Source of the DNA: Pseudobutyrivibrio sp. YE44
GTDB taxonomy: Bacteria; Bacillota; Clostridia; Lachnospirales; Lachnospiraceae
Length of the DNA stretch: 64,000 nt
Assembly: GCF_900104335.1 (NCBI RefSeq)
Contig: NZ_FMXT01000010.1
Location: 1 to 64,000 of the forward strand
Direction of reading: 5' to 3'
Part shown: positions 57,873-60,708 of the stretch, piece after piece
How positions within the stretch are numbered: position 1 is the stretch's first letter
How the letters are laid out: each line of letters starts with the position of its first letter
The notes under the pieces: model-generated
The model's database searches: none
What the model was told of the DNA's origin: nothing
The model's input: only the letters and a program-made list of their open reading frames with translations
Made by a program: the position numbers and the translations under genes

Positions 57873-58883
57873 TTAAAGGATAACAACACCCTTTTCGCTA
57901 GCATACTGAACATCTGCTTCTGGCCAGAAAGAACACTGTACTTCACCGATGTGGCACTTGCGAAGGAAGAACATACAAATACGGCTCTGTCCAATACCAC
58001 CACCGATTGTATATGGAAGCTGCTTGTTAAGGATTGCCTTCTGGAATGGAAGCTCTGCTCTATCCTCACAGCCAGCCTTCTTAAGCTGAGATGCAAGGCT
58101 ATCCTCATCAACACGAATACCCATTGAAGAAAGCTCAAGTGAAATATCATCAACAGGATAGTAAACAATGATATCACCGTTTAACTGCCAGTCATCGTAG
58201 TCAGGAGCACGACCATCATGCTTCTCACCTGACTTAAGCAAATCTCCAATCTTCATAAGGAAGATTGCACCGTATTCCTTTGCTGCCTCATACTCACGCT
58301 GAGAGTGGTCAAGGTCTGGCCATCTATCCTCAAGCTCCTGAGTAGTGATAAAGTGAATCTCCTCTGGAAGGATGCACTGTACATAATCGTACGAATTTGC
58401 AATATATTTTTCTGTAACACGAAGAGCTGCATAAACGCTCTTTACATATTTCTTAAGAGTCTCTTCGTTACGAGCAGACTTTTCAATGATACATTCCCAG
58501 TCCCACTGATCAACATAGATTGAGTGGATATTATCTGTGTCTTCATCACGACGAATAGCGTTCATATCCGTGTAAAGACCTTCACCTACATTGAAGCCAT
58601 AACGTCCAAGTGCCATTCTCTTCCACTTTGCAAGAGAATGAACAACCTCCACCTCTTTATCGCCCTGTTCCTTTACACCGAAAGCAACTGGACGCTCAAC
58701 ACCATTTAAGTTGTCGTTCAAACCTGACTCAGGCTCTACAAATAAAGGTGCAGTAACACGATGCAAATTAAGCTCTGCAGTAAGCTGTGCCTGGAAGAAG
58801 TCCTTCACCTTCTTAATTGCAATCTGTGTCTCTTTTAAATTCAGCGCCGAAGCGTAACCCTCTGGGATGTATATTTTGCTCAT
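57873..58883 (-). CDS. asnA: Aspartate--ammonia ligase (asparagine synthetase A)
   Basis: 336 residues, related to class II aminoacyl-tRNA synthetases. Motifs include RVTAPLFVEPESGLNDNLNGVERPVAF, VVHSLAKWKRMALGRYGF, YVDQWDWECII and the C-terminal GGGIGQSRICMFFLRKCHIGEVQ. It makes asparagine from aspartate, ammonia and ATP. It follows asnS in the same direction across a GC-rich structured spacer with AGGAGG before the ATG, so both genes for charging and making asparagine are probably under the Asn leader at 60.6 kb. Confidence 0.96.
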   Translation of the reverse strand: MSKIYIPEGYASALNLKETQIAIKKVKDFFQAQLTAELNLHRVTAPLFVEPESGLNDNLNGVERPVAFGVKEQGDKEVEVVHSLAKWKRMALGRYGFNVGEGLYTDMNAIRRDEDTDNIHSIYVDQWDWECIIEKSARNEETLKKYVKSVYAALRVTEKYIANSYDYVQCILPEEIHFITTQELEDRWPDLDHSQREYEAAKEYGAIFLMKIGDLLKSGEKHDGRAPDYDDWQLNGDIIVYYPVDDISLELSSMGIRVDEDSLASQLKKAGCEDRAELPFQKAILNKQLPYTIGGGIGQSRICMFFLRKCHIGEVQCSFWPEADVQYASEKGVVIL

Positions 58884-58902
58884 AACTTGTTGTCCTCCTA
58901 AT

Positions 58903-59042
58903 ATGGCGACCCTCTATTTTCCCATGCTCCCGCAAGTCAACTCCCATTGGGAACAACAGAAACTCCCCGCCGGTGTGGGTCCCCTCTGTTGTCCCCATGG
59001 GGCCCCCTTGCTCGCGCCTGCCAAGGTTATGTAGTCGCCCTG
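58903..59042 (-). ncRNA. GC-rich structured RNA or palindromic element between asnS and asnA
   Basis: Read on the minus strand, nested inverted repeats are visible: GGCGAC pairs with GTCGCC at the ends, GCAAG with CTTGC inside, and a 17-18 bp arm starting CCCATGGGG with its partner ending CCCAATGGG (ACAACAGA against TCTGTTGT). The loop is GC-rich. Base composition is very unlike the surroundings. It does not show a T-box sequence or SRP/6S motifs I know. It may be a structured RNA in the operon or a mobile palindromic repeat. Confidence 0.5.
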
Positions 59043-59060
59043 TTTGCAAATAACTACGAA

Positions 59061-60461
59061 TTATAGATCACAATTTCCTACTGTACGTGGGAATGGGATT
59101 ACATCACGGATGTTGCCCATGCCTGTTAAGTACATTACGCAACGCTCGAAGCCGAGTCCGAAGCCTGCGTGACGTGATGAACCGTATTTACGAAGGTCAA
59201 GGTAGAACTGGTAATCCTCTTCCTTAAGACCACATTCCTGCATTCTCTTAACGAGTACATCGTAGTCGTCCTCACGCTGTGAACCACCGATGATTTCGCC
59301 GATACCAGGAACAAGACAGTCCATAGCTGCAACAGTCTTTCCATCCTCGTTAAGCTTCATATAGAAAGCCTTGATTTCCTTTGGATAATCTGTAACAAAT
59401 ACAGGCTTTCCAAAAATCTTTTCTGTAAGATATCTCTCGTGCTCTGTCTGAAGATCACAGCCCCAAGATACCTTGTAATCAAATTCGTCGTTGTGCTTCT
59501 CAAGCTCTGCTACAGCATCTGTGTATGTGATGCGACCGAAGTCTGAAGTAGCAACGTTATGAAGTCTATCAAGAAGTCCCTTGTCGATGAAGTTGTTGAA
59601 GAACTCCATCTCCTCTGGAGCATGCTCAAGAACATAATTAATAATGAACTTAATCATATCCTCAGCAAGTTGCATATCATCCTCAAGGTCAGCAAAAGAA
59701 ATCTCTGGCTCAATCATCCAGAACTCTGCTGCATGACGAGTTGTGTTTGAGTTCTCAGCTCTAAATGTAGGTCCAAAGGTGTAGATGTTCTTGAATGCCT
59801 GAGCATATGTCTCACCATTTAACTGACCTGACACTGTAAGATTTGTAGCATGTCCGAAGAAATCCTGTGAGAAATCAACCTTGCCATCCTCTGTCTTAGG
59901 AATGTTGTTAAGGTCCATTGTTGTAACCTGGAACATCTCGCCAGCACCCTCACAGTCAGAACCTGTGATAAGTGGAGTGTGAACATATACGAAATCACGC
60001 TCCTGGAAGAACTTGTGAATAGCATATGCGCAAAGAGAACGCACTCTGAATACTGCCTGGAATGTGTTTGTACGTGGACGAAGATGTGTCTGTGTACGAA
60101 GGTATTCCATTGTATGTCTCTTTGGCTGAATAGGATAATCAGGTGTTGACTTACCCTCTACGTCAATCTTTGTAGCCTGAATTTCGAATGGCTGCTTAGC
60201 CTCTGGTGTAAGTACAACAGTACCTGTAACATAAACTGCTGCACCAACATTAAGGTGTCTAACCTCATCAAAGTTGTCAATCTTGTCCTGGTTGAAAACA
60301 ACCTGTGCAGGATTGAAGAATGTACCATCAGCAAGTACTAAAAATCCAAATGTCTTTGAATCACGCATGTTACGAACCCAGCCGGATACTGTAACTTCTT
60401 TGTCAGCGTAATCTGCAAAGTTTCTTGAAAGTGTTCTAACGTCTGTAGTTTTAACGCTCAT
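59061..60461 (-). CDS. asnS: Asparagine--tRNA ligase
   Basis: 466 residues, class IIb. An N-terminal OB-fold anticodon-binding domain ([25 protein letters not shown]) precedes the catalytic domain with motif 2 ([25 protein letters not shown]), [16 protein letters not shown] and motif 3 ([28 protein letters not shown]). It charges tRNA-Asn. AAGGAG precedes the ATG. Its leader has an Asn-rich peptide and attenuator. asnA follows. Confidence 0.97.
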
Positions 60462-60488
60462 TGTTCTAACTCCTTATTATAAATTGGC

Positions 60489-60526
60489 TTAAAAATAGCC
60501 CCATCAAACTTGCGCTTGATGAGGCT
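60489..60526 (-). terminator. Attenuator terminator in the asnS leader
   Basis: Arms (minus strand) AGCCTCATCAA (60526-60516) and TTGATGGGGCT (60507-60497) close an 8-base loop with one G-U pair, followed by TATTTTTA. It lies between the leader peptide and the asnS start codon, so it acts before the gene. Its 5' arm is also complementary to an upstream leader segment (60560-60567), giving an alternative antiterminator. Confidence 0.85.
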
Positions 60527-60559
60527 TAAAATTCTTACATATTTGAACAATCTTCAAAT

Positions 60560-60567
60560 CTCATCAA
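60560..60567 (-). promoter_or_regulatory. Antiterminator segment of the asnS leader
   Basis: TTGATGAG on the minus strand is perfectly complementary to CTCATCAA, the main part of the terminator 5' arm (60516-60523). Extended to TGAGATT it can also pair with AATCTCA inside the leader peptide (60622-60628). It begins 10 bases after the leader stop codon, within reach of a ribosome stopped there. Confidence 0.7.
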
Positions 60568-60577
60568 CACAATAAAA

Positions 60578-60652
60578 TTAAATCCCCTGATTATTATTCA
60601 CGGAATTATTATTGTTATTATTGAGATTATTAAGCATAGATGTAAATGCCAT
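60578..60652 (-). CDS. Asparagine-rich leader peptide of the asnS-asnA operon
   Basis: A 24-codon frame with ATG at 60650-60652 and AAGGGG seven bases upstream. The peptide reads MAFTSMLNNLNNNNNNSVNN then NQGI and stop: 11 of 24 residues are Asn, six in a row, mostly AAT. It lies about 20 bases from the predicted transcription start and 50 bases before a terminator with a competing antiterminator. This is the classical layout of amino-acid leader peptides: scarcity of Asn-tRNA stalls the ribosome on the Asn codons and prevents termination. Because the gene controlled is asnS, the sensor and the product match. Confidence 0.85.
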   Translation of the reverse strand: MAFTSMLNNLNNNNNNSVNNNQGI

Positions 60653-60679
60653 GATTGTTCCCCTTCTTTATTTGAGTAA

Positions 60680-60708
60680 AGTATAGTTATTTAGATTTTC
60701 AATGTCAA
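60680..60708 (-). promoter_or_regulatory. Consensus sigma-70-type promoter of the asnS leader
   Basis: TTGACA (60703-60708), a 17-base spacer and TATACT (60680-60685) on the minus strand. Transcription should start near 60673, giving a short leader before the peptide start at 60652. Confidence 0.85.

Follow-up and report, generated by a model that had tools for sequence, protein, structure and literature searches.

A putative asparagine-codon leader attenuator before asnS-asnA in Pseudobutyrivibrio, apparently one member of a wider family of Lachnospiraceae leaders

Introduction

The asparagine--tRNA ligase gene asnS of the rumen bacterium Pseudobutyrivibrio sp. YE44 is preceded, on the minus strand of the window (the whole stretch of 64,000 nucleotides that was analysed), by an open reading frame (ORF) of 24 codons, 11 of which specify Asn, accompanied by a promoter, an antiterminator arm, and an intrinsic terminator, all of them lying 5' of the gene pair asnS-asnA. 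We consider it probable that transcription of the pair is attenuated here by the translating ribosome in response to the charging of tRNA-Asn, and that the RNA frame of the leader was inherited from a family of Lachnospiraceae leaders that elsewhere stand mainly before GNAT acetyltransferase, SAM-methyltransferase, and phosphorylase genes, became enriched in Asn codons in front of asnS, and later acquired an early stop codon. The leader would thus be one member of a wider and apparently undescribed attenuator family, which, judging by the sequences, is built from a covarying hairpin, an antiterminator, and a terminator.

When Asn-tRNA is scarce, the ribosome would stall on Asn codons 8, 9, 11–16, and 19–21 of the leader and would keep the upstream part of the leader unfolded, in which case segment 2 would pair with segment 3, the terminator would not form, and asnS-asnA would be transcribed. 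When Asn-tRNA is plentiful, the ribosome would instead reach the early stop codon and leave, and the released leader would refold, with the ribosome-binding site pairing with the stretch that follows segment 2, with or without a pairing of segments 1 and 2; such refolding would block both the 2:3 pairing and further translation of the leader, and the terminator would form. The parts of the first state are seen in the sequence and in folding, and the response to Asn-tRNA is what they suggest, while the second state, by release and refolding, is a prediction of the folding models.

An earlier note on this DNA had read the locus as an Asn leader-peptide attenuator, a reading that is partly supported here. 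Before asnS there do stand a leader with Asn codons, a terminator, and an antiterminator that excludes it, and these are kept across the genus, but the note had missed the attenuator family that precedes other genes.

The asnS-asnA Locus

The promoter, the ORF, segments 1–3, and the terminator all lie where the earlier note had placed them, as direct reading and a scan agree (Table 1); the terminator is likewise present before asnS, but its stem ends 35 bases, rather than 40–50, from the asnS start at 60461. The leader RNA (60674–60462) is far more stable than its shuffles (folding z = -6.2). Its family register is complete, with the H1 hairpin, segment 2, and a terminator of the GCCTCATCA type all present; H1, which lies inside the ORF, may serve transcription pausing. 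The promoter is near-identical in most of the other leaders read, its invariance in the alignment being there by construction because the alignment members were picked on TATACTTT, and the T tracts 3' of the terminator are interrupted in several species.

Table 1. Features of the leader region and of the genes downstream of it in the window.
Feature	Position	Strand	Basis or remark
Sigma-70-type promoter, TTGACA-17-TATACT (TTGACA 60708-60703, TATACT 60685-60680)	60680..60708	minus	11/12 consensus bases; direct reading and scan
GGGGA, ribosome-binding site of the leader ORF	60659..60663	minus	with its surroundings, complementary to 60553-60544
Leader ORF, MAFTSMLNNLNNNNNNSVNNNQGI and stop (ATG 60652)	60578..60652	minus	11/24 codons Asn
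Segment 1, AATCTCA, possible anti-antiterminator	60622..60628	minus	weak in asnS leaders
Hairpin H1 (AATTCCGTGA..TCAGGGGATT) within the ORF, common to the family	60581..60607	minus	covariation, codon use
Segment 2, TTGATGAG, 5' arm of the antiterminator	60560..60567	minus	
Stretch AGATTGTTCA, complementary to the ribosome-binding-site region of the same leader	60544..60553	minus	
Segment 3, CTCATCAA, common to antiterminator and terminator	60516..60523	minus	
Intrinsic terminator (stem 60526-60497, 13 pairs, and T tract)	60487..60526	minus	scan
asnS, asparagine--tRNA ligase	59061..60461	minus	NCBIfam NF003037, TIGR00457 over cut-off
asnA, aspartate--ammonia ligase, probably cotranscribed	57873..58883	minus	NCBIfam TIGR00669 over cut-off

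A scan of the gap between asnS and asnA in the window found no terminator-like site, and the leader therefore probably controls both genes. This agrees with the proposal of the earlier note that asnA would be switched as well, as does the gene order in the genus: of 28 genus loci (which include the two halves of one genome's split gene), 25 have asnA 3' of asnS and on its strand, at a distance of 23 to 428 bases, the stored stretch showing no asnA in the other three. The same arrangement occurs in 9 of 28 loci from other genera. The gap itself (58884–59060) is G+C-rich amid A+T-rich surroundings and is possibly an inserted repeat.

Distribution in Pseudobutyrivibrio and Beyond

A search of 29 genomes of the genus gave 27 asnS loci with the 5' end of the gene in the assembly, and the leader is present in 25 of them. 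The whole Asn-rich ORF is found in 24 of these 25, the remaining one (L010) having only its 3' part because the contig ends there. The two loci that have no leader before asnS, L020 and L022, come from genomes (G009, G019) in which a search with R1, a covariance model built from asnS leaders only, found no copy elsewhere; in L020, asnS directly follows a chemotaxis-receptor-like gene, and the sequence upstream in L022 is nearly the same. In four further loci (L008, L014, L015, and L016), extra hairpin-rich stretches between the terminator and asnS push the gene farther away.

Named genomes were also scanned by pattern, which gave 24 stretches, two of them chance matches and 22 of the Pseudobutyrivibrio type with asnS right after the leader, one of the latter in a record still named Butyrivibrio fibrisolvens 16/4; since these 22 records overlap the genus genomes, they give the genus its name and add no independent cases. 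Comparison of the upstream regions of asnS in relatives, as the earlier note had suggested, has a divided outcome: the Asn-rich frame and the terminator are kept genus-wide, but the closest asnS loci of other genera have an Asn-rich leader ORF in 0 of the 28 that were read, out of 236 genomes with an asnS match (238 matches, two of them own-genus). Beyond these 28 loci, the absence of the leader rests on model searches, with strict filters over 40 genomes, and asnS is the downstream gene at none of the loci that the family models led us to tabulate outside the genus.

A Leader Family Before Other Genes

The R1 model also finds second loci in the same genomes, with E down to 2.4e-10 (after a short calibration, which makes E values rough), and among its matches are loci from four further genera of the family, of which one is doubtful. 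Among the 15 R1 loci that were read, 12 have short ORFs with a related core in front of genes for a fusion of GNAT and methyltransferase, a GNAT protein, or a methyltransferase; two (L101 and L103) look like chance by eye, and one (L108, G064:C79:77055-77250, minus strand) is doubtful, having an R1 score of 37.5 bits before an RtcB-like gene and no R3 listing at E 0.001. L193, at the same place as L122, is a leader according to R3 (71 bits). A further copy (L104, G000:C16:852873-853033, minus strand), with MKTYTFANNFIAPNNGAGSVNPGFYFAMFGECVYKCIN, lies outside the window in the same genome, before a GNAT-methyltransferase fusion gene.

With the successor models R2 and R3, matches were obtained in 26 of the 29 genomes of the genus (E <= 0.05) and in 15 of 397 genomes of the family (E <= 0.001), two of these 15 being own-genus and two chance by eye; in the genus of G234, which we would guess is probably Butyrivibrio, 27 of 41 genomes match, with up to five copies per genome. 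Matches in G485 and G495, from other families of the order, are unconvincing. We tabulated 86 loci, from which 12 were dropped by eye for chance terminators or unreadable leaders and then L203, leaving 73 (6 asnS representatives and 67 others, hereafter paralogues). Two of the dropped loci, L176 and L186, are perhaps decayed members, since each stands before a GNAT-type gene; in L150, L154, and L167 the script took the start codon too far upstream. Several of the 67 paralogues are near-duplicates, and the 6 asnS leaders stand for many near-identical copies, so the counts given below are not independent.

Ten proteins encoded downstream of paralogues were compared with Pfam, in which GNAT acetyltransferase domains, SAM methyltransferase domains, and PNP_UDP_1 phosphorylases scored over the cut-off, and one AAA_18 and one nucleotidyltransferase match fell below it; among the NCBIfam matches listed for paralogue downstream proteins, no model was over its cut-off. 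Enzymes of such types include many antibiotic modifiers. An Rfam scan of eight family loci, taken up to E 1, gave nothing but a tRNA.

Conservation of the RNA Frame

In A6, an alignment of 59 members, H1 and the terminator are paired in 94.4% of cells, as against 33–55% in slid controls, and 97 cells have changed on both sides, as against 28.4 in shuffles (reached in 0 of 500); the alignment was fitted to the structure under test, which favours that structure, and a MAFFT alignment (A3) has the same trend, with 8 both-side-changed pairs against 3.3 (1 of 500). The terminator alone (helix 3) is paired in 98.6% of cells and covaries across the 59 members.

The core motif VNxxQG occurs in 60 of the 73 members, with Gln written as CAG in all 60 and the Val position as GTG in 57 and ATG in 3. 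The codon before is NNC even though its amino acid varies (P, S, L, or F), and the codon after CAG is mostly GGG, with four GGA and four GAG. Because the core codons are nearly fixed while the amino acid before them changes, we prefer conservation at the level of the RNA to conservation of the peptide.

The antiterminator is 88.5% paired in A6, as against 20–48% when slid, and it is absent from the structures of R2 and R3. Its covariation is modest: both-side changes occur at one pair in A6, a result reached by 476 of 500 shuffles, and at three pairs in A5 (22 sequences), reached by 198 of 500, the count of both-side-changed cells in A5 being 8 against 3.3 in shuffles (2 of 500). Tested against dinucleotide shuffles, the 2:3 pairing is better (p <= 0.05) in 5 of 6 asnS representatives and in 64 of 67 paralogues. 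The antiterminator pairing proposed in the earlier note is supported, with little covariation of its own.

Asparagine Codons and the Stalled Ribosome

The effect of a halted ribosome was modelled in a folding scan in which the covered stretch was hidden and transcripts ended just after segment 3. With the ribosome masked onto the first or the last Asn codon, 7.3–8.0 expected 2:3 pairs are predicted in 24 of 24 asnS leaders. A finer position scan of 18 leaders (6 asnS, 12 paralogues) places few 2:3 pairs (0.2–2.9) after stalls at codons 14–18, some of which are Asn, in L011 and L014. The earlier proposal that a ribosome stalled on Asn codons frees segment 2 agrees with the models at the first and last Asn codons in all 24 leaders, but not at these inner positions in two of them.

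The same scan bears on an alternative that we regard as unlikely, namely that the asnS leader retains a function that may be ancestral in the family and senses any slowing of the ribosome, for instance by translation inhibitors, with the Asn run acting as a slow, low-complexity stretch. When the 12 scanned paralogues are folded, 2:3 becomes free almost wherever the ribosome is stalled ahead of about codon 25, so that no specific codon is required; the RNA frame is common to leaders of acetyltransferase, methyltransferase, and phosphorylase genes; and bmrB of Bacillus subtilis, in the part of its description available (PMC4191407), offers a precedent. Against a general sensor stands, first, the identity of the genes downstream, asnS and asnA, which are exactly the Asn pathway, and, second, the behaviour of the Asn codons, which are most enriched in the asnS clade and drift synonymously. 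The Asn fraction is 0.39–0.50, with runs of 6–9, in the 6 asnS representatives, and in the 67 paralogues it has a mean of 0.136 and a maximum of 0.30, with runs of <=4. That maximum belongs to L196 (1398-1565), whose 33 codons include 10 for Asn and whose downstream gene has a weak AAA_18 (kinase-like) match, and Asn richness alone is therefore not wholly confined to asnS; Asn codons within H1 are also present in paralogues. Another member, L194 (1426-1587), is rich in Thr (TTTETVTTT), stands before a protein with a below-cut-off nucleotidyltransferase match, and is possibly another swapped sensor.

Across the 24 complete asnS leaders the Asn count is 10–14, with 231 of the 274 Asn codons being AAT and 43 AAC. 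The 16 leaders of the MAF type with 24 codons have 13 codon variants, 7 of them synonymous and 6 not (the random expectation is 18% synonymous), and two of the six are one Leu/Asn swap; within the Asn codons of these leaders, only AAT/AAC exchange is found, except for one AGC and that swap. This pattern also tells against a second alternative, to which we give very little credence, in which the Asn run has a purely structural part, keeping the leader exposed as an unpaired, A/U-rich spacer, and the operon is controlled by another signal, such as a protein, that acts on the terminator. Such a spacer would suit the A-rich character of the region and the weak 1:2 pairing of asnS leaders described below. 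It does not suit a ribosome-binding-site pattern matched in 24 of 24 complete Asn-rich ORFs, in-frame insertions and deletions of three bases, or N-terminal codons that are replaced (MAFTS, MSRSF, MYFTI, MAYVI, MTYSV) while the Asn codons, always next, persist, and no Rfam element was found in the window.

Termination When Asparagine Is Plentiful

In the earlier note, segment 1 was to pair with segment 2, and a ribosome at the leader stop codon was to cover the start of segment 2; neither survives well in asnS leaders. The 1:2 pairing is better than dinucleotide shuffles in 0 of 6 asnS representatives, and the sequence of segment 1 is not conserved, AATCTCA being missing from L011, L016, L024, L025, and L026. 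The wider family is more favourable to it, with 45 of 67 paralogues beating dinucleotide shuffles and 28 of 67 beating codon shuffles, and segment 1 of paralogues is often CTCRTCAA, a mimic of segment 3.

In 22 of 24 leaders, the stop codon precedes segment 2 by 10–11 bases. If the ribosome edge is taken as 12–13 bases, segment 2 is left unmasked by a ribosome on such a stop, and 2:3 is still predicted to form in these 22, the window included. Masking sets in gradually from an edge of 14 and is partial and variable at 16–17 (0.1–6.0 pairs left). The masking that the earlier note had envisaged fits only L025 and L026 among asnS leaders; these two, which have a late stop, and 12 of 12 scanned paralogues are fully masked at the stop in folding.

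The early-stop leaders differ from the late-stop ones in the absence of a ribosome as well. In folding, the 22 early-stop leaders then keep 0–4.2 2:3 pairs (21 of 22 keep <= 2.1), L011 having 4.3 with a longer 5' end as against 2.1 with a shorter one, and the two late-stop leaders keep 2:3 (6.7 and 7.5 pairs); among the 12 paralogues scanned, 2:3 is left unblocked in 3 (L095, L119, and L194). All 24 of 24 asnS leaders have complementarity between the ribosome-binding-site region and the bases that follow segment 2 (p <= 0.045, mononucleotide shuffles), as do 21 of 67 paralogues (p <= 0.05); in L025 and L026 both sides of this complementarity differ in sequence, and in L014 and L015 the 3' side has changed. 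Codon-shuffled leaders lose 2:3 without a ribosome as much or more in 0–60% of 40 shuffles per leader, for which reason selection of the off-state through codon order is not clear, and, with codon-shuffle controls this weak, the refolding off-state is put forward as a proposal only. The two versions of the asnS leader would seem, from these models, to reach the off-state differently, by masking in the older form and by release and refolding in the form found in the window.

Origin of the asnS Leader

A maximum-likelihood tree was built from 59 cores, 57 taken from the 73 members together with two more asnS leaders (L002 and L013); each core is short, and support is poor at several of the deep nodes. 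In this tree the 8 asnS leaders group together in a single clade (UFBoot 93), whose sister is L094, a Pseudobutyrivibrio leader before a GNAT-methyltransferase gene (UFBoot 94), and the late-stop leaders L026 and L025 branch first within the clade. The simplest reading of these sequences is that a single copy of the leader came to lie before asnS in an ancestor of Pseudobutyrivibrio, that its stretch from segment 1 to H1 became richer in Asn codons, and that the early stop arose after this recruitment.

More broadly, we give even chances to a modular attenuator, in which the H1 pause hairpin, the antiterminator, and the terminator would have been copied before many genes of Pseudobutyrivibrio and related Lachnospiraceae, would mostly read a general slowing of the ribosome, and would switch enzymes of the antibiotic-modifier type; in one lineage Asn codons would have taken the place of the sensor codons, so that a stress sensor became the amino-acid sensor of asnS-asnA.

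Relation to Known Systems

If the attenuator is real, a tRNA-synthetase gene of the Lachnospiraceae would be under Asn-specific leader control, and the leader would be a traceable case of how an amino-acid attenuator can originate: in a leader that serves other genes, the codons lying between two fixed RNA elements are exchanged. The parent family, for its part, leads to a testable claim about the inducers of many uncharacterised acetyltransferase and methyltransferase genes of rumen and gut bacteria. Among the open-licence papers listed in searches on attenuators, on asnS, and on upstream ORFs and antibiotics, none showed an Asn leader or described this family, and an earlier prediction is possible, for example in Lopatovskaya et al. 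2010. Leader-peptide attenuation itself is known in Firmicutes.

Among the closest parallels are the trp/his-type attenuators of Proteobacteria, which, in the available part of a model of them (Elf and Ehrenberg 2005, PMC1183508), likewise combine a short ORF holding cognate codons, a competing antiterminator, and an intrinsic terminator, with the cognate genes downstream. The leader in the window differs from them in its amino acid, in having a tRNA-synthetase gene first, and in its phylum; it has an additional hairpin, H1, inside the ORF, and the region of its ribosome-binding site is able to pair with the bases following segment 2; and its stop codon lies 10 bases before segment 2, where a ribosome does not mask that segment in the folding model. 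The earlier note had assigned this logic to Proteobacteria and T-boxes to Firmicutes, and T-boxes are indeed usual in the latter, but leader peptides occur among Gram-positive bacteria as well. As far as the accessible portions of these papers go, they include His leader peptides before hisS/hisZ in bacilli (Naville and Gautheret 2010, PMC2965389), candidate His attenuators in several Gram-positive orders (PMC9413887), the Leu attenuator of ilv-leu in S. aureus (PMC5794164), and further Firmicutes examples (listed in PMC4833913). They share with the asnS leader the use of leader peptides in Firmicutes where T-boxes are usual, including before a tRNA-synthetase gene, and differ in the amino acid and in being described, in those same portions, without an RNA frame common to genes outside amino-acid metabolism.

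The paralogues may resemble bmrB of B. subtilis (PMC4191407) and toiL of E. coli (PMC12121999), in which, according to the excerpts available, a ribosome slowed on a leader ORF switches RNA folding. They differ in that toiL acts through translation and Rho and that the asnS leader is marked by its Asn-rich codons. The kinds of genes downstream suggest that the paralogue leaders may be induced by ribosome-targeting drugs in the manner of bmrB.

With the T-box, finally, the asnS leader shares a task, the linking of tRNA charging to synthetase expression, and the same genome has three T-box matches at E 0.001 (L109, L110, and L111, one over the gathering score), read by eye as preceding trpD-like, thrS, and valS genes, so that the species seems to use both kinds of control. 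That a T-box or another known riboregulator governs asnS, with the ORF incidental, is nevertheless hardly credible at the sensitivity of the covariance-model and pattern searches, since no Rfam family, the T-box included, reached threshold in the window and a simple T-box pattern is absent upstream of the asnS loci read. T-box control of asnS is in any case reported for only a few Firmicutes in the available part of one survey (PMC2494555). The T-box senses tRNA directly, through conserved motifs that were not found in the leader of the window, whereas the asnS leader would sense it through the ribosome that translates its Asn codons.
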